Shown here one piece after another: positions 15,718 to 25,644 of a DNA stretch of 40,196 nt. The position numbers and the translations under genes are program-made. Numbering within the stretch: the stretch's first letter is position 1; every line of letters begins with the position of its first letter. Source of the stretch: a virus. The notes beneath the pieces were generated by a model that saw only the letters and a list, made by a program, of their open reading frames with translations, was not told the DNA's origin and ran no database searches. Where the stretch lies: IMG/VR virus record IMGVR_UViG_3300030098_001480, positions 1-40,196 of that record, one strand, 5' to 3'.

Positions 15718-18700
15718 GCATTAGCTCCTATAGGAGATAGTAAATCATTTAATGAAACTATCGGTGTGTATAATATACTTTTTTTCACTAGACCTCCATC
15801 CTTTTTATAAGCTTTATATGGAGTTAACATATCAGGTGTCAACTCTATCATAAAAGTATCTACACCAGAACCTGCATGACCCATATCTACTTTGCCTACT
15901 TCTACTTTTGAATTTTTCATATTAGCTATTTTGTTTAGTGTTTCTTCAACATTACTTGTAAAGTGTTGACCTGTATGATCGTTTAGATTAGGACCACCGT
16001 ACTGCATGTCATAAGCCACCATTTTACCACTTCTTCTATCAGCGTCTGGTGGCACCTCTACGCCTCTACCACCTTGATAAGCTTTGACAGCTTTAGATGG
16101 CACAACGGCATAATGACTTGGTGCGCTTTGATTAACAACTAAATTACCTGATTCGTCAAAACTAAATCTAGCCTTAGCTGCGTGATAAATGTCATTTTTT
16201 ATTATAGCATCTACCCAATCTTTTTGATCTTTTAAAGGTATATTAGGAAATAAATCAGTAGAATCTATGTTATCAATAGTAGAGTTAATTCTTTCAAGAG
16301 CTAAATCTCTTTTAGTTGCAGCCTCACCTAATTCTTTAAAACTAGCTTTAGTTATATCATCCATCTCCATTTTACCTATCCTTTGAAAGATGGCATCTGC
16401 TTCTATTAACTCATCAATAGATTTTTTTAGCTCAGCAAAAGTAGCTGGCATTGGTCGAAACACATTTTCTAATCTTTTGTAAAGTTCATCTAATCCTATT
16501 CGTTGTCCTGGTGTATCAGTCATATCATTTATATATCTTCTAATCTGTGCTTTTATATCAGATTTTAAACTTGCTGCTTTTTGTAAAAAGTCAGATTGAA
16601 TTTCGTCAGCTATGTTAACTTTTATAGATCTGTTGTTTAAAGTTGCGTTTCTATGACTACTCAAAGACCAACCCACAACATACGGCTCTCCTACTAATGT
16701 ATTATTTTGTGCTCCAAAATCTGGACTTGTGTCTACACGTCTCATGTTACCATGACCCTCATATTGTCTTATTTCCTCAGGTAATGATCCCACGTCTCCT
16801 CTTATGTCTTTAGAGTCTATCCATAAAACTCTTTCTGTTCTTGTGCCGTCTATATAATTTGAGTGTCTACCAGAATCACCATATTTCAAAGTTCCCGTAG
16901 CATCACCGTAGGATACCGTTTGTAAATAATTTGTTGGTGATGTATCAACTAGTTCTTTAATTTCTGCATAAGAAATTTTTTGATCATTTGTAAACTGACC
17001 TGTTTCTCTGTTAAAACCGCCTTTTTTGTTCAAGTAAGATCTAATATAGGAATCGTAAAGTTCACTTTCTTTTATACCTTTAGATCTAAACCAGTCATGC
17101 CAATCTTTCGCTGACATGCTAACTACTTCTGATGATAAATTTTTTCCTCTAATATTTAAAGTTGATTGATTTATAACATCGTCTAATTCAGAATAAAATA
17201 ATTTATTATTACCTGAACCTATAATTGTTTCTGGTGTCACTGTCGGAACTAATGCTGTGCCAGGTTTAGTAGTAGGTTTCTTTTTTACTTTTACAGGAAC
17301 ATCAACCTCTTTAACTGTAAATGTTTTACCTTCTAAGTCTCCTAAGCGTAACGCTTTTTGTTGTGCATCATCTAAGCTTTTTGATTGAAATACTTTCTTG
17401 CCAGTGTCGTCATAAATATCATATCGCTTTTCTAGTACGGGTGCCTCTGGTGCTGGTAATTCTAATTTGGTTTCAACTTTTTTTGTAACTTGCGGTGTGT
17501 TACCTAATAAAAAATTTTTTGGTAAAGGTAATGCTTCTGCTTTTGGTACTAATAAGTTTCCTATGGCTGACGCTGCTTTTGATACAATAGATTGTTTTTC
17601 TTGCTCAGTTTCTACATCACCCCCCTCTACAAAGTTTGTGGGCTTACCTTCTCCTATGTATGGGGCATCACCTTTAATAAACATTTCATCAGAGGATGCA
17701 TCGCCTGATTTAGGTCTTGCATTTGATATTTTAAATGAAGATGGGTTATTAACATAACCATCCATTCTCATATCAAAAAAAGCTATATTATCCTCTAATG
17801 AAAAAGATTTTTCACCAATGTATAAACTTTTTACTCCAGCTTGTTCTGGTTCTACTTGTGCTTTATTTCCTACTTTTGCTTTTAATATTTTAAAAACATT
17901 ATCTGGCATCTGTTTATCAGAAAATCTAAGATAAGTTTCGAGTCCTCTCTCAGTCATTGATTTATTAACATCAACAAGCTTGTTTAGATTTTTTTCAACA
18001 TTCTTTCCATTTTTAATCTCTGACACAATTTTTCTAATAATATTTTCATATTGTTTTTGTGTTCCAATATTATGGGCAGCAAAATTTACGTTAAGAAAAG
18101 GTGCTTGAAACATCTGACCCTCTAAATTTTTTGCTAATTTAAACTGTTCACCTTTGACAGGTGTTGTAGCTTTCGTAGCTCCGATAGGCATAATATGTGA
18201 CATTTGTGCGTTAAAGTGTGTGGTTGCGTAATCGAATGCCATGCCCTCTACATCGTCATTTATTGACGCAGTTCTATTTGGATATTTAGATTTGTATTGA
18301 GATACAAATTGATTTCTAAATCCTTCATTATTTTTAACAGTGTCAACAAATTTTTTTATAGCATAGTCTGTTAAATTTTTTGCATGTGCTACTTTTGATA
18401 AATATTCTTCATATGATCCTGGCTCTTTAAAATATTCATCTTTAATAAAAGCAAATAATTTATTTCTTTTCTCTCGCATCGCTGTTTTATCATACTCAGG
18501 ATTAATATCATAAATAGGCTCACCCTTTTCATTTAACACAGCTTTACCGTCTGCGTCTAATCTTTTAATTCTATTTGGAACAAAACCATACTCGTCCATT
18601 AATTTTAAAAACTCTTCTTCATTACCAAAGCCACCTGCTCTGTACATATCTCTAATTATTGTGTGTTGTGCTCGTGCCTCAACTGTTGATTCTCTAGTAA

Positions 18701-19874
18701 AACCAGGAAAATAAGAATAAAATTGACCTATTGCTCTTTCACCACTTACCTCTCTTGCCCCTACCAGTTGTGCTAATTCAGATTCAGGATTATCATTTAA
18801 AATTCTTGTCAAGGTTGTTCTAGCTATCGGAGTGTTGTTTTCCTTAAGAATATTTACTGCTTCTAATTTATTTAATTTACCACCTTTTGTTTGCACTGCA
18901 TTTCTTAATATTTCTAAAACCTCTTCAGTTACCTGCTCTCCTCTTTCAACTTGCACTGGTGCTTTGAATTTTGCAATAAAACTATTTGGATTATTTCTTG
19001 CATATTCTTCTATAACTTCTACTTTAGTTCCAACATCTCCTGCCATAGTAGTAGGTGCTATGCTATTATTTGCACCTCCGTAATAAAGACCTAACGCACT
19101 GTCATACTTATCTATTTTTGCAGTTTGTTTGGCTTTATTTGTTTTTTTTATTTTTTCTTGAGTTACTGGATCTTGCGTTCCATATTTTCTTTCAACTCCA
19201 GTTGATATAGTTTTTGTTACATCATCTCCTGCATCAACTAAAAACTTTTGTGCCAATTTATTTTTACCTGCTCTTGCAGCATTTATCGCCATACGTATTG
19301 GAACAGTAATAGGGGTAATTAAACCAAGTGTAGAAATATCAACTGTATCTATAATACCAAACAAATAGTTTGTTAAATCATCACCCCTTAAATCACTTAC
19401 TCTAACTTCACCGTTTGCTACTTTTCTATGTATGTCCGCAGTATCATTAAAGAAAAAACCTCTAAACTGTTTAAATCTATCTCCTAATGTTAAAGGATTA
19501 AAATCCGTGTCTCTTCTGATTTCATTATATAATTTTTCTAATTCTGGTTGTCTTCGTTGCGGTATTAATTTGTTAATCTCATCTATTCGATCTGCATAAT
19601 ATTTTTGACTTAGTATATTTTTATTTAAGTCGTCACGTTCTCTGAGTGCAGTTCTTTCCTCTTCTGGAATATCTACTAAATTTAGTAAACCTGTTGTAAC
19701 TCCGCTTTTAGCGGGAGCCGCTGTCACTTCTTCAACAGCATCTTCCATTAAATTTGTAAGCACATTATTTTTTTCATTTTGCTTTGCAGTTAAAAAAGAA
19801 GGTAACTGATTTACCCCCTCAGCTGCATTATCGAAGAAAGGTTTTATTGAACTGTTAGTATCGGGTCTAGCCAT
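15711..19874 (-). CDS. Giant virion-associated / polyvalent-type protein (1387 aa)
   Basis: No full-length function is recognised. Residues 1-260 are helical with an amphipathic stretch (GIIDTVDISTLGLITPITVP). Residues 280-600 form a helical region with YGGANNSIAPTTMAGD and GQFYSYFPGF motifs. About 730-900 is a Pro/Lys/Thr-rich linker with NFVEGGDVE. The C-terminal 480 residues carry TERVLWIDSKDIRGDVGSLP, KVNIADEIQSDFLQKA, KDWVDAIIKNDIYHAA, SHYAVVPSKAVKAYQGG and FMIELTPDMLTPYKAYKKDG. The EIQSD...W...A block recalls 'polyvalent' proteins of podophages, which may be ejected with DNA. It lies between TerL and portal, and overlaps both. Confidence 0.55.
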   Translation of the reverse strand: MARPDTNSSIKPFFDNAAEGVNQLPSFLTAKQNEKNNVLTNLMEDAVEEVTAAPAKSGVTTGLLNLVDIPEEERTALRERDDLNKNILSQKYYADRIDEINKLIPQRRQPELEKLYNEIRRDTDFNPLTLGDRFKQFRGFFFNDTADIHRKVANGEVRVSDLRGDDLTNYLFGIIDTVDISTLGLITPITVPIRMAINAARAGKNKLAQKFLVDAGDDVTKTISTGVERKYGTQDPVTQEKIKKTNKAKQTAKIDKYDSALGLYYGGANNSIAPTTMAGDVGTKVEVIEEYARNNPNSFIAKFKAPVQVERGEQVTEEVLEILRNAVQTKGGKLNKLEAVNILKENNTPIARTTLTRILNDNPESELAQLVGAREVSGERAIGQFYSYFPGFTRESTVEARAQHTIIRDMYRAGGFGNEEEFLKLMDEYGFVPNRIKRLDADGKAVLNEKGEPIYDINPEYDKTAMREKRNKLFAFIKDEYFKEPGSYEEYLSKVAHAKNLTDYAIKKFVDTVKNNEGFRNQFVSQYKSKYPNRTASINDDVEGMAFDYATTHFNAQMSHIMPIGATKATTPVKGEQFKLAKNLEGQMFQAPFLNVNFAAHNIGTQKQYENIIRKIVSEIKNGKNVEKNLNKLVDVNKSMTERGLETYLRFSDKQMPDNVFKILKAKVGNKAQVEPEQAGVKSLYIGEKSFSLEDNIAFFDMRMDGYVNNPSSFKISNARPKSGDASSDEMFIKGDAPYIGEGKPTNFVEGGDVETEQEKQSIVSKAASAIGNLLVPKAEALPLPKNFLLGNTPQVTKKVETKLELPAPEAPVLEKRYDIYDDTGKKVFQSKSLDDAQQKALRLGDLEGKTFTVKEVDVPVKVKKKPTTKPGTALVPTVTPETIIGSGNNKLFYSELDDVINQSTLNIRGKNLSSEVVSMSAKDWHDWFRSKGIKESELYDSYIRSYLNKKGGFNRETGQFTNDQKISYAEIKELVDTSPTNYLQTVSYGDATGTLKYGDSGRHSNYIDGTRTERVLWIDSKDIRGDVGSLPEEIRQYEGHGNMRRVDTSPDFGAQNNTLVGEPYVVGWSLSSHRNATLNNRSIKVNIADEIQSDFLQKAASLKSDIKAQIRRYINDMTDTPGQRIGLDELYKRLENVFRPMPATFAELKKSIDELIEADAIFQRIGKMEMDDITKASFKELGEAATKRDLALERINSTIDNIDSTDLFPNIPLKDQKDWVDAIIKNDIYHAAKARFSFDESGNLVVNQSAPSHYAVVPSKAVKAYQGGRGVEVPPDADRRSGKMVAYDMQYGGPNLNDHTGQHFTSNVEETLNKIANMKNSKVEVGKVDMGHAGSGVDTFMIELTPDMLTPYKAYKKDGGLVKKSILYTPIVSLNDLLSPIGANAW

Positions 19875-21334
19875 TAATAATATTCTTTTCGAATCTTGGG
19901 CACTGGATCATCGACAAAGTCATCCTTCAATCTTAAGAAGTTACCTTGTCTAAAACGCATTACGGCTTGTGTCATGCTATCCACCAAGTCATCATGATCT
20001 CCATAAGGGAACGCTGCGCACTCCTCAATTACATCCTCCGACCATCTTGTGTCGGGTGTCCATATCATACCACTTTCGAACAACGGTGCAACTGAATTAA
20101 CTCTAACATGTTTATCTTGTCCTTTGCTTGGTGTAAAATTTACAACAGGGACTCCTATCTGTCTTAACTCGTGTGTAAGCGGTAGCCCTGATGCTTTAGC
20201 CTCAATTATAACTGTTTCGGGTTCCCAGTACTTGTATTCTTTGTACGCTATCTTTTTTAATTCAGGAAAGTCCCACCGACCACGTTTCGCATCCATTAGT
20301 ATTAAGTGTGGTACATTGTTAGCTTTAGGATAGAATACTCCCCATGTAGTAATGGCAGAGTAATCAGCTGTTTCTCTTTTACTAAAAGCTGTATCATAAC
20401 TTTGAATTATGTGATGTAAATCAGGTATATCTTTCTCCTCCCACACTTGCCACCACTCTCGTTTGATAATACTACCCTCTTGAGATACGGGAGACTGTTG
20501 CCATTGTGCGTTCCATTTACTTGCTGATAGTGACGCTTTTACTGACTCTAGTTCTGGTAATGACCAGAAACCAGGCCATACTGGTTTACCACTAGGCATG
20601 ATTGCAGGAAACTCTACAACTTCCCATTGATCTGCTTTAATCTCTGATTGTTTTTTTATCAACTTTCCTGTTAAGTCTTTCACGGACCAACGGGTCATAA
20701 CAATGACTATTGCACCACCAGGCTGTAAACGCTGACGAGGACCAGAGGTATACCACTCATAAGCTTGATCGAGGGCCGTGTCGCTTAGTGCGTCTTGCTC
20801 GGAATGCGGATCATCGATAATGAGCAGATCGGCACCACGACCAGTAACCGCACCGCCTGTACCAGCAGCAAAGTATTCACCACCTTGAGCCGTCTCCCAC
20901 CGACCAGCTGCCATGCTATCGGGTTGTAATTCAGTTTTAAAAATTTTTTTATACTCTTGCGTTTCCATAAGGTTCCTGACTTTACGTCCAAAGCGAATAG
21001 CAAGTTCTCCTGTGTGAGTGGTTTGCATTATCTTTGCTTTTGGGTTTTGGCCTACGAACCACGCAGGAAATAAGAAGGACGCAAACTCTGACTTAGTGTG
21101 TCTAGGAGGCATGTTAATGATCAATCGTTTTAGTTTACCAGATGCAATATCTTCAAATTTTTTAGAAATTATTTTGTGATGTGAACCCTCTTTGAACTCT
21201 GGCCAAACAGATCTTACGAATGGTAAAAAATTTTTTTGTGACTGCTCTTGAACAGAATATTCTAATTTTTTTATTTTTAATTTTTGAGCTAGAAGTCTCG
21301 CTTCTTCTTGAGTTAATGTCTCTATTGATTCCAT
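19874..21334 (-). CDS. terL: Terminase large subunit (486 aa)
   Basis: ATPase domain: Walker A-like MPPRHTKSE at 75-83, adenine-binding region upstream (FLPFVRSVWPEF), Walker B DLLIIDDPH at 169-177, and coupling motif TRW near 214. Nuclease domain: acidic residues in SYDTAF (D314), VIIEAKASG (E378) and GDHDDLVDSMTQA (about 445-460), with the RNase H-like order. It cuts concatemers and drives DNA into proheads, with the small subunit at 25174-25644. The missing classical GKT (here HTKS) is common in this terminase group. The ATG overlaps the start of the 1387-residue gene's operon by one base. Confidence 0.95.
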   Translation of the reverse strand: MESIETLTQEEARLLAQKLKIKKLEYSVQEQSQKNFLPFVRSVWPEFKEGSHHKIISKKFEDIASGKLKRLIINMPPRHTKSEFASFLFPAWFVGQNPKAKIMQTTHTGELAIRFGRKVRNLMETQEYKKIFKTELQPDSMAAGRWETAQGGEYFAAGTGGAVTGRGADLLIIDDPHSEQDALSDTALDQAYEWYTSGPRQRLQPGGAIVIVMTRWSVKDLTGKLIKKQSEIKADQWEVVEFPAIMPSGKPVWPGFWSLPELESVKASLSASKWNAQWQQSPVSQEGSIIKREWWQVWEEKDIPDLHHIIQSYDTAFSKRETADYSAITTWGVFYPKANNVPHLILMDAKRGRWDFPELKKIAYKEYKYWEPETVIIEAKASGLPLTHELRQIGVPVVNFTPSKGQDKHVRVNSVAPLFESGMIWTPDTRWSEDVIEECAAFPYGDHDDLVDSMTQAVMRFRQGNFLRLKDDFVDDPVPKIRKEYY

Positions 21335-21454: not shown

Positions 21455-21540
21455 ATAGGAAATCTTCTACCAGGTAATACCAGTAAAATCCAGCTCGTTA
21501 CAGGTGGTAAATTAGTTGTGGATAAGTATGGAAAGAAAGT

Positions 21541-21586: not shown

Positions 21587-21853
21587 CTAGAGACGTTCAG
21601 TAATACCGAACTTTTGTGCAAGTTCTGACATTAGCTTTTGACCGAATGCTCTGACTTCAGGATTATTACTAGTTTGGACAAACTCAAAGATAGCATAATC
21701 CATGTGCTGACAAACTGCTTTATAGTTGATTGATTTAGTCCATTTGTCATTAGAAGTTGACTCAAGGATTTCTCGCTTGAGTTTTTGAACTTCAGACTTC
21801 ATCGCCTCATCTACGACAGTCTTGATGTCAGTTAAAGTTAGATCGTTTGACAT
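21587..21853 (-). CDS. Single-gene unit: helical hypothetical (88 aa)
   Basis: An all-helical acidic/basic protein (MSNDLTLTDIKTVVDEAMKS, EVQKLKREILEST; IFEFVQTSNNPEVRAFGQKL). It has its own promoter (21875-21904), a good SD (AAGGAG, 6 bases before ATG) and its own terminator. I do not recognise the family. Single-gene expression before the late operon suggests an early or regulatory protein. Confidence 0.7.
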   Translation of the reverse strand: MSNDLTLTDIKTVVDEAMKSEVQKLKREILESTSNDKWTKSINYKAVCQHMDYAIFEFVQTSNNPEVRAFGQKLMSELAQKFGITERL

Positions 21854-21874: not shown

Positions 21875-21904
21875 TATTTAACAACATTATGGGATTACAG
21901 TCAA
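21875..21904 (-). promoter_or_regulatory. Sigma70-like promoter, TTGACT-18-TAAATA
   Basis: On the minus strand TTGACT, 18 bases, TAAATA, then AGGAG and the ATG at 21853 within 25 bases. The 5' leader would be very short. It is the promoter of the 88-residue gene. Confidence 0.6.
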
Positions 21905-22200
21905 ACACTTTATAAGAGGAAAAAAATTCTTCACAGCTTTCGCTGTCCACCTGCTGCATGCTCCAATACCCTATATGGTAAGAGGGAAGATTCGTGGGCA
22001 TCACCTGATGGAGAATGGACTCGTGGGCGAGATTATTCACACCCATCTGGACGCCCGGGTAGCTTTGACCTAGTATACTTGGCTAGGAATCGTGAGAACT
22101 TGACTAATGCAGAATAAGTGTTGACACTGCACCAACAACTCGTGCCGCCTGGGACAGCAGCACGAGGCCAACTATAGTAGCAATGAAAGTGAAAATTTGC
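21905..22200. other. Intergenic, GC-rich start of the repeat island
   Basis: No gene of normal quality is seen. It holds a copy of the ATGGAGAA repeat at 22008, an AGTATACT palindrome at 22072, CTCGTGG repeats around 21990-22025 and a 7-bp hairpin at 22139-22166. On the minus strand a 33-codon hydrophobic frame (22104-22205) starts with ATT directly at the previous stop; I do not call it as a gene. Confidence 0.5.
22139..22166 (-). terminator. Weak hairpin after the 22201-22512 gene
   Basis: CTCGTGC and GCACGAG form a 7-bp stem with a 14-base loop about 35 bases downstream of the stop codon. On the minus strand it is followed by TTGTTGG, so the U-tract is poor. It may end this single-gene transcript or be part of the repeat island. 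Confidence 0.4.
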
Positions 22201-22512
22201 TTAATGGGGAATCAACTCCTGCATTTGTGTCCACGGCTGTGACCCAGGACTTACCAGCAGAGACGCCCCGTCAAACCAATCAAGGAACCAGTATTCTAGA
22301 CGATGCAGCTCTTTGTGCTCGTTTACGAAACCTCGAAGCTCGTCACCTGGTCCGCCCCAACTAAATTGCCAGCGCCAGTAGCCTTCTGGCTGCTTGTTAA
22401 ATGTATTAGGTTCTACATAATCAAACGCAAGAGCCTCATAATGCGGGTCTGCAAGATCCTGCTGACGGGACTTCCATTCTTTTTTAATTCTTTGCTTACA
22501 GCTTTTATTCAT
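22201..22512 (-). CDS. Conserved hypothetical (103 aa), strong own promoter
   Basis: The N-terminal 25 residues are basic. The C-terminal part carries a block (YWRWQFSWGGPGDELRGFVN, then LHRLEYWFLDWFDGASLLV) that I associate with small proteins of plasmids and phages with no known function. Trp-rich, soluble. It has a near-consensus promoter at 22533-22561 and SD AAGGAG, and so is probably made strongly and early. The role is unknown. Confidence 0.75.
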   Translation of the reverse strand: MNKSCKQRIKKEWKSRQQDLADPHYEALAFDYVEPNTFNKQPEGYWRWQFSWGGPGDELRGFVNEHKELHRLEYWFLDWFDGASLLVSPGSQPWTQMQELIPH

Positions 22513-22532
22513 CTTCGTTCTCCTTTTTCCTA

Positions 22533-22561
22533 AATATATGGGACTTTAAAAGTGTTGTCAA
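22533..22561 (-). promoter_or_regulatory. Strong sigma70-type promoter, TTGACA-17-TATATT
   Basis: A perfect -35 hexamer, a 17-base spacer and TATATT (5/6) face the gene at 22201-22512, whose SD and ATG follow within 25 bases. It is one of the best host-type promoters in the window. Confidence 0.8.
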
Positions 22562-22674
22562 GCACCCATTGCAACTACGTTACCTGGTCACGCTCCAGCT
22601 CACCTAGTATACTACCTGTGCCAGTCGTGGGTCGGTGGCGATGGAGAATGGAGAAAGAAGAACAAACTACGAAC

Positions 22675-22694
22675 AGCAGCAGCATGCTGCTGCT
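22675..22694. repeat. Perfect 20-bp palindrome AGCAGCAGCA/TGCTGCTGCT
   Basis: Both halves are exact reverse complements with no spacer, built from AGC/GCT triplets. It is far longer than expected by chance in this region. It might be a protein-binding site, a cleavage site or a slippage product. It is not in a called gene. Confidence 0.7.
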
Positions 22695-22721
22695 CAAATT
22701 TTTCCTTACACACCTCACTTC

Positions 22722-22824
22722 TTCGCAAAAGCCTCGCTAATGGAGAACAACTCCACGGGCTGGGGACAGTGCACCACTTTTTTCCTTTTATCGAAAGATT
22801 CGCAAAATCAAGCGTAATGGAGAA
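22722..22824. repeat. Two diverged 26-base repeat units (third at 23024-23049)
   Basis: Units at 22722-22747 and 22799-22824 share TTCGCAAAA, six variable bases, then TAATGGAGAA (20 of 26 identical). A third copy at 23024-23049 lies inside the 3' end of the nuclease gene (19 of 26 identical to the second). The conserved flanks with variable middle look like a bipartite recognition site. Confidence 0.65.
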
Positions 22825-22936
22825 TCAGGAGGATGGCGATCCAAGCAGCAGGACGCCTGGTCTGAGGAAACCTTATGAGTATGGCAATAGACACGGCAGC
22901 TGTGCCCAGTAGCCAATGGAGAAGTATACTAATCAT
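22808..22936 (-). CDS. Possible 42-aa membrane miniprotein
   Basis: ATG at 22936 opens a frame of two hydrophobic segments separated by a basic stretch (MISILLHWLLGTAAVSIAIL; RFPQTRRPA; AWIAILLILHYA). No SD is visible, but a promoter with perfect hexamers ends 9 bases upstream, so a leaderless message is possible. It lies within the repeat island, and the TTCTCCATT repeat encodes its Leu-His pairs. It may be spurious. Confidence 0.35.
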   Translation of the reverse strand: MISILLHWLLGTAAVSIAILIRFPQTRRPAAWIAILLILHYA

Positions 22937-22944
22937 GTCCCAAT

Positions 22945-22971
22945 ATTATAGGATCTTTCCGCAGCTGTCAA
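22945..22971 (-). promoter_or_regulatory. Consensus-hexamer promoter, TTGACA-15-TATAAT
   Basis: Both hexamers are perfect; the spacer is 15 bases, shorter than the usual 16-18. The -10 is followed by ATTGGGACATG. The element overlaps an 8-bp inverted repeat (AGGATCTT / AAGATCCT at 22950-22980), which could be an operator. It fires into the repeat island, suggesting an RNA or the miniprotein there. Confidence 0.5.
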
Positions 22972-23005
22972 GAAGATCCTGACCCGGTACCTCAGCTCCA
23001 TGAGC

Positions 23006-23461
23006 CTATGGTTCGGTGGCGATGTCGCAAGATTCACGGTAATGGAAAAACGATTCCATCACCTGCAGCAGCTTACCTGGATCCCAAGGATAGGGGATAA
23101 TGGCCAGGGGCTCTGTGTCTAAACCCGTAATGGAGAGTTCACGGGCCATGCCACCTGAATATATATACAAGGCTCTATTAGGGAGGGTCGCAGCCATAAT
23201 AAAATTCAGTCCACCTGCTTCATTGTAGCTGTAATTCCACGATATTTGACGTGGAGTCAATGCTATTTTTTTCAGCTTAGTACATTTTAATTCTACAAAA
23301 AAGCTTATTGGATATCCGTCTTTACCACGAAAAACTCCATGTAAATCAGGAACACCAGGCGAACTGAAAGATTCTATTCTAGTCCAATGAACTTCGGGAG
23401 TAATCTCCTTCAGTTTTTTCCAAAATTTAGTTTCTGGTTTTGCTGTCATATGGTACACCAT
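23006..23461 (-). CDS. VRR-NUC-like PD-(D/E)XK nuclease (151 aa)
   Basis: The core GVPDLHGVFRGKDG (catalytic D) and SFFVELKCTKLKKIALTP (ExK) around residues 47-80, followed by a Q residue in TPRQISWN, match PD-(D/E)XK/VRR-NUC nucleases. These process branched DNA or resolve junctions in phage recombination and packaging. The start is set at ATG 23461; 23449 is an alternative, and an earlier non-ATG start would lengthen overlap with the 58-residue frame. The C-terminus contains a copy of the island repeat. Confidence 0.75.
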   Translation of the reverse strand: MVYHMTAKPETKFWKKLKEITPEVHWTRIESFSSPGVPDLHGVFRGKDGYPISFFVELKCTKLKKIALTPRQISWNYSYNEAGGLNFIMAATLPNRALYIYSGGMARELSITGLDTEPLAIIPYPWDPGKLLQVMESFFHYRESCDIATEP

Positions 23462-23603
23462 CTTCGTTTGCAATGATGCTTTTTGAGAGTATCTTGCCAA
23501 AAACATTAAACCAAAAATGCTTAAACGCAGTTGACTTGGCTGCGTGCATAGCTTTCAATGCTCTTTGTTGACGCTCAATACTCAATGTTATTTTGTCATC
23601 CAT
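23427..23603 (-). CDS. 58-aa hypothetical overlapping methyltransferase and nuclease
   Basis: ATG at 23603 has a strong SD (AAGGAG, 7 bases upstream). The frame begins MDDKITLSIERQQRALKAMH and ends DGVPYDSKTRN. It overlaps the end of the methyltransferase gene by 16 bases and the start of the nuclease gene by 35. Basic and helical at the N-terminus. The family is unknown to me. Confidence 0.55.
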   Translation of the reverse strand: MDDKITLSIERQQRALKAMHAAKSTAFKHFWFNVFGKILSKSIIANEDGVPYDSKTRN

Positions 23604-25173: not shown

Positions 25174-25644
25174 CTAATCTTCTGGTGTAATGTCAATAAC
25201 GTCTGTATTTATGCTAAATTGTTTTTCAATTTCTTTAAGTTTTTCTTCTACTTCAGCCTTAGATAGCTGATCTATTGAGCCTGTGAGTATTTCTTTTCTA
25301 TCTATATATAATCCTGCTGCCTGACCTCTTGACTTCTCAGCGGCTACAGCGGCAGCCCAATTGCCTGCTTCTTCTGCACCACGAGATAAATCGTCCAATC
25401 TGCGAATATGTCTACCGTAAGTTACTTTGTATTTTTGTTCCCATTCTCTACGTAATCTTTCTATTTCACTAACAACTAACGGAAACATTTTAGGATTTGT
25501 CAGATTAGCTGCTGCTTGTTGTGCTGACTTTTCAGAAAAACCAGCTTCAATTGCACACTCTTTTGCAGACATCCTATCGCCTTTGGTAACTAGTAACACT
25601 GCAAACTTATGTTGTTTTGTTGTTAACTTTCTTACATTGCCCAT
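25174..25644 (-). CDS. terS: Terminase small subunit (156 aa)
   Basis: The N-terminal helix-turn-helix (LTTKQHKFAVLLVTKGDRMS, AKECAIEAGFSEKSAQQAAA, NLTNPKMFP; about residues 7-55) is the DNA-binding domain of small terminases (Terminase_2-like). It is followed by a central oligomerisation coiled coil (VSEIERLRREWEQKYKVT) and a C-terminal acidic region (VEEKLKEIEKQFSIN). It recognises the packaging site and loads TerL. It is unusual in lying 3.8 kb from terL, separated by the methyltransferase operon and repeat island. No good SD is seen. Confidence 0.85.
   Translation of the reverse strand: MGNVRKLTTKQHKFAVLLVTKGDRMSAKECAIEAGFSEKSAQQAAANLTNPKMFPLVVSEIERLRREWEQKYKVTYGRHIRRLDDLSRGAEEAGNWAAAVAAEKSRGQAAGLYIDRKEILTGSIDQLSKAEVEEKLKEIEKQFSINTDVIDITPED

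Follow-up and report, generated by a model that had tools for sequence, protein, structure and literature searches.

Between the two terminase genes of the virus record IMGVR_UViG_3300030098_001480 (40,196 bases, analysed at its full length and here called the window) lies a GC-rich island, positions 21905-23140, with many copies of a short directional repeat. The repeat is over-represented, biased to one strand and confined to one island, it has a 7-nt periodicity, it is coupled to promoter-like boxes and it shows extra synonymous conservation. Our preferred explanation, put forward tentatively, is that regulatory DNA sites, specific to each lineage, form an array in a control region that is itself hypervariable. 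The island would then be a cis-acting control region with many copies of one short site, here TTCTCCATTA, built on the 7-nt unit CCATTNN and set next to promoter boxes, which would be active promoters. A phage or host protein might bind several of the copies and, once bound, switch the nuclease-like gene, TM1, P103 and their neighbours during one specific phase of infection. The sequence of the site would drift in concert within a lineage and differ between lineages (CCATTNN, GCTTGNN and others). Altogether this suggests a fast-changing switch region, with copying slippage as the alternative.

Judged by its TerL, which is 65-67% identical to that of phage 023Pt_psg01 and of Pelagibacter phage HTVC027P, the window phage belongs near the HTVC023P-type pelagiphages, as a relative of HTVC027P and HTVC023P. 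Its host, by extension from these relatives, is probably SAR11. HTVC023P-type phages have been described as occurring widely and as belonging to the most abundant in nature (PMC9599517), and the expression study of HTVC027P gives the function of its early genes as unknown throughout (PMC12753301). One control island of conserved place and variable sequence offers a concrete test site in the cultured HTVC027P, where promoters, regulators and packaging can all be addressed at the island. Should a protein bind these repeats and change along with them, they would form a natural series for the co-evolution of site and binder; if they are products of slippage only, they show how closely neutral repeats may come to resemble a regulatory array.

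The repeat island in the window

All main genes around the island are on the minus strand. In the order of transcription these are TerS (25174-25644), two small genes, a C5 DNA methyltransferase, a small gene and a 166-aa nuclease-like gene (23006..23506), then the island with TM1 and P103, followed by an 88-aa gene (21587..21853), TerL (19874-21334), a large protein and the portal. The first-pass annotation had located the island between the terminase genes, which is correct, with the methyltransferase, the nuclease-like gene and small ORFs sharing this interval. Its estimate of about 50% GC was slightly high, the island having 47.9% against 35.4% elsewhere. The six exact copies it had named are all present where it had put them: ATGGAGAA occurs six times in the whole window, always on the plus strand (2.1 expected). 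Allowing up to one mismatch, TAATGGAGAA is found nine times on the plus and never on the minus strand of 21905-23140, whereas 1000 dinucleotide shuffles of the island gave 0.044 on average and never more than 2, so that the dispersed repeat is confirmed. Five further one-mismatch occurrences in the rest of the window correspond to the chance level. In the direction of the genes the word reads TTCTCCATTA, a degenerate CCATTNN heptamer. There is a single tandem heptamer pair; the remaining copies are dispersed.

Following transcription, and thus descending coordinates, the first two copies, both on the plus strand as are all others, lie in the 3' end of the nuclease-like gene: TAATGGAGAG (23128..23137), which codes for LSIT and shows extra synonymous conservation, and TAATGGAAAA (23040..23049), coding for FHY. 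Two more are located in TM1 (22808..22936, minus strand), a small membrane-protein ORF of 42 aa conserved in the relatives of the window group, one within its start (CAATGGAGAA, 22914..22923) and one within its end (TAATGGAGAA, 22815..22824). Another TAATGGAGAA is at 22738..22747, and the tandem pair ATGGAGAATGGAGAA at 22641..22655 is non-coding. TAATGGGGAA (22202..22211) overlaps the stop of P103, a 103-aa protein of PHROG 36747 (22201..22512, minus strand), and is followed by TAATGCAGAA (22105..22114) and TGATGGAGAA (22006..22015). Coding copies make up about half of the total and use two different frames (SIT, LHY), and several copies are non-coding; a single coding frame across the island, raised earlier as a possible explanation, does not account for them. 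Bipartite 26-base units had also been proposed and are less well supported. Two such units ending in the repeat exist, at 22722-22747 and 22799-22824, both with TTCGCAAAA, and a third differs in having GTCGCAAGA. The TTCGCAAAA half is mostly missing from relatives and was discarded as part of the site.

Promoters overlapping the island were seen at first pass and are also found here, as matches to consensus sequences. On the minus strand there is a sigma70-like TTGACA-N-TATAAT upstream of TM1 (22945..22971), a promoter-like TTGACA-N-CATATAT upstream of P103 (22534..22561) and a promoter-like element upstream of the 88-aa gene (21883..21905), the first gene past the island. Furthermore, three palindromic boxes accompany motif copies, AGTATACT at 22072..22079 with the motif at 22105, ACTATAGT at 22171..22178 with the one at 22202, and again AGTATACT at 22606..22613 with the pair at 22641-22655; the statistics of this pairing come from relatives. 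Because the boxes are palindromic, the direction of a promoter, if any, could be either.

TM1, which has its own promoter-like element, is absent from an ORF list in which the cut-off was 50 aa. Another possible small membrane ORF, TM2 (22104..22205, minus strand), is uncertain and has no standard start codon. The motif copy at 22006 adjoins the 3' remnant of a tRNA-Cys gene (22016..22034, minus strand), and this copy is kept in two close relatives, L004 and L005, beside an intact tRNA-Cys(GCA) gene (L004:3437-3510, L005:7247-7320) which directly precedes it. In the window no intact tRNA gene was found, only this 3' end, and hence the gene was lost or replaced there. A search of the island for DNA similarity to known phages returned nothing. 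An RNA element was considered and dropped, as the island had no Rfam match at E values up to 1 and 73 aligned repeat units yielded no consensus RNA fold.

Repeat families and the neighbouring genes in related phages

One scan by TerL and two by the nuclease-like protein brought together about 240 loci. Similarity was the criterion for picking them and they are mutually related, therefore all counts below refer to non-independent events, and many of the contigs are fragments. At the position just after the nuclease-like gene, between TerS and TerL, a repeat island is found in most relatives. Where enough sequence was available 3' of the nuclease gene, one 10-mer reached 6-10 copies downstream of it in most loci, compared with 2-5 in shuffles and 3-6 upstream. 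A look at related phages had been suggested earlier, and its outcome favours the repeat: where the neighbouring genes are retained in relatives, so is the repeat, with its sequence drifted. L004, L005 and L006, the close relatives in which the island is homologous, can be aligned across it. This alignment is a mosaic of alternating conserved and replaced blocks, and the motif persists in the latter; the L006 copies show a joint drift to GTTTTCCATT.

Two families, CCATTNN and GCTTGNN, comprise nearly all repeat-bearing loci. The former consists of the window group together with a broader one carrying TCTCCATTGC, the latter is the HTVC027P group, in which tandem arrays occur. Autocorrelation peaks at 7 nt in both (7.8x and 3.8-3.9x), and the CCATT family has an additional spacing of 77-99 nt. 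In HTVC027P, 16 of the 17 genomic GCTTGNNGCTTG pairs lie at 16506-17726, on the plus strand, so the repeat is restricted to one island in this genome as it is in the window. Other islands are built differently: 22-24 nt units AATTACTGAACTNACTCC, several of them in tandem, in L025:4046-5052 (where the units are AATTACTGA), seven long inverted-repeat units around ACTTGACCCC in L077:78-1150, and 58-nt units in HTVC023P. A search of open-access papers on the HTVC023P and HTVC027P phages met with no earlier description of these repeats.

In both main families the repeat starts inside the 3' end of the nuclease-like gene. From a GxPD..ELK..Q pattern, the assignment to PHROG 2165, sub-threshold Hjc matches of its relatives and a very weak profile match to the phage nuclease 4qbn (E 0.79) we infer a PD-(D/E)XK nuclease of VRR-NUC/Hjc-like type, although PHROG 2165 bears the label DNA helicase. 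We take 4qbn to be the structure of a phage VRR-NUC. Among nuclease genes from the window group (14 after dereplication), a set of related sequences with few codons to compare, synonymous identity was 0.917 in the motif codons versus 0.69 in the other codons (permutation p 0.0075).

The repeat families also differ in a linked gene. P103 is present in 56 of 58 CCATT-family loci and GP88 in 65 of 69 GCTTGNN-family loci, while neither occurs in 20 of 24 loci without repeats; shared descent may account for this association. The model of P103 has one alpha helix, five strands and a further alpha helix (pLDDT 86). Its best PDB match by Foldseek is a uracil-DNA glycosylase inhibitor (probability 0.93, but E 0.38), a weak likeness which we treat as a lead and not as a finding. 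The fold search with the GP88 model matched nothing.

Strand bias and promoter-like boxes

The repeats keep almost entirely to one strand. Over about 110 kb of islands per family, the GCTTGNNGCTTG pairs of the GCTTGNN family stand at 846 versus 0 and TCTCCATT in the CCATT family at 258 versus 5, compared with 8 versus 8 in about 255 kb elsewhere. In the window the repeat has one orientation relative to transcription; in the GCTTG family its strand stays constant while gene direction varies both ways.

The first-pass annotation had offered a packaging region, a replication origin or a set of regulator sites. Among these, regulator sites fit best, because the repeats adjoin promoter-like boxes in both families; packaging is less well supported, and a specific sign of an origin is missing. 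Past the nuclease gene, TGTCAA, the reversed -35 box TTGACA, occurs within 30 nt in 58 of 92 GCTTGNN patches (2.8% at random positions), in many of them with a -10-like sequence further on. In the CCATT family the motif is found 15-48 nt upstream of TATAGT/TATACT boxes in 63 of 108 and 33 of 70 cases, as opposed to 10% and 15% of positions, with distances peaking at 22-27 nt and 26-35 nt. Genes in the island of HTVC027P may point in the same direction. According to the sequence record gp33 and gp34 lie between and beside the GCTTG patches, and in an infection study these two formed a separate expression cluster at 6-9 h (PMC12753301). The same study assigned a Pdase_C33_assoc domain to gp34; our domain scan found it, weakly, in gp33 of the record, so the published numbering may be off by one.

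Several findings speak against a regulatory role. The distance from CCATT to the box varies by several nucleotides, more than a fixed protein contact would lead one to expect; the boxes of the CCATT family have no clear -35 beside them in either direction; and the placement of the repeat relative to the promoter differs between the two families. The loci being related, part of the promoter coupling may simply be inherited. No DNA-binding protein for the repeat was found, the models of P103 and GP88 giving no clue of this kind as neither has a significant fold match, and no repressor was recognised in the part of the phage proteome scanned. Moreover, GCTTGNN-type heptamer arrays exist in many bacteria, where their function is not known.

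As a regulatory array, the island may be compared to the stoperators of Cluster A mycobacteriophages (PMC3029335). Both have many copies of one short asymmetric site (nine with at most one mismatch here), which are mostly intergenic or overlap gene ends and are lineage-specific in sequence; in the window they also have one orientation. However, stoperators are distributed genome-wide, follow the direction of transcription and are bound by a known repressor, whereas the sites described here are confined to one island in the window and in HTVC027P and, in the GCTTG family, keep their strand whatever the gene direction.

Other explanations for the repeats

The strongest competitor, and a possible one, is that the heptamers arose when the polymerase slipped in a spacer under little constraint and in the adjoining nuclease 3' end. 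Such an array would then decay by mutation and short duplications, leaving the scattered copies as relics with little function. We retain this possibility because unrelated bacterial genomes, for instance Pseudomonas and Halomonas, commonly contain GCTTGNN arrays, because slippage has been suggested for heptameric repeats, which are over-represented in bacteria (PMC4692102), and because about half of the copies in the window are coding. The 7-nt periodicity of both families, the differences between lineages and a hypervariable spacer in which a tRNA gene was gained and lost are also in line with it, and those bacterial arrays that were inspected show no sign of promoter contact. Slippage is, however, at odds with repeats on one strand only, with their strong coupling to -35 or TATA boxes, with single copies about 77-99 nt apart that are retained while their flanks diverge, with motif codons more conserved than the neighbouring ones and with one island per genome in HTVC027P. 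Heptameric repeats of bacteria such as GGGAATC in Xanthomonas, GGGGA(T/C)T in Nostoc and TAACTGA in Beggiatoaceae (PMC4692102, PMC4679880), resemble those of the phages in their periodic, degenerate and mainly intergenic seven-nt units, but they occupy many loci per genome, in contrast to one island with fixed strand and promoter coupling. The tandem repeats of Borgs (PMC9879509) are likewise fast-evolving, lineage-specific and found between genes and at ORF ends; unlike the degenerate, GC-rich repeats at a single place here, they are perfect, A-rich and genome-wide.

A packaging start (pac or cos), with TerS binding the repeats and TerL cutting in or near the island, is doubtful. Its location between TerS and TerL, next to a nuclease-like gene, and a strand polarity suited to a directional process would agree with it, and the pac of SPP1 also has several sets of direct repeats near the terminase genes which span promoters and vary among related phages (PMC4737164). 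But the SPP1 site extends across the beginning of the TerS gene, whereas the island follows the nuclease-like gene, with about 2 kb and several genes between it and TerS. Nor does TerS similarity predict the type of repeat, which indirectly speaks against the repeats as TerS sites: L046 and L024 have a TerS 73% and 66% identical to that of HTVC027P, yet no arrays. This argument is indecisive, since TerS and repeats need not match, as shown by SF6, a relative of SPP1 that lacks one set of pac direct repeats (PMC4737164). Contig ends (L003-L082) cluster away from the island, 31 within 1 kb upstream of TerL versus 6 within 1 kb downstream, a count confounded by contig selection and discarded as a packaging signal; the clustering may be an assembly break or a selection effect.

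On a further, unlikely reading, nuclease-like gene and island could be one functional unit, the repeats being targeted by the nuclease or by the linked P103 or GP88. Protein and repeat would then be matched to each other in each lineage, for instance so that packaging or recombination begins on its own DNA only.

It is improbable that several small genes have the repeat as a common 3' end which was copied from one gene end to another and retained because of the peptide it encodes (LHY or SIT). The copies in the nuclease gene, in the conserved TM1 and at the P103 stop would suit this idea, as would the similar C-termini of P103 and the nuclease (PWTQMQELIPH, PWDPGKLLQV). Against it stand the two different frames, the several non-coding copies, the conservation of synonymous positions as well and, in the GCTTG family, a repeat strand that is constant on oppositely directed genes.

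Least likely is a replication origin whose iterons an initiator or the host DnaA would bind: the repeats are directional and a perfect DnaA box, TTATCCACA, at 21517-21525 between the 88-aa gene and TerL is kept in L004 and L005, but a single box is about the chance level and is absent from L006, the island is GC-rich instead of holding an AT-rich unwinding element, neither the island nor its HTVC027P counterpart has a GC-skew switch, and the replication genes are located elsewhere.

Finally, the HTVC027P record (L247, MN698241.1) leaves the nuclease-like gene at 16189-16587 unannotated; gp32 is annotated instead on the opposite strand, across the 3' end of this gene.
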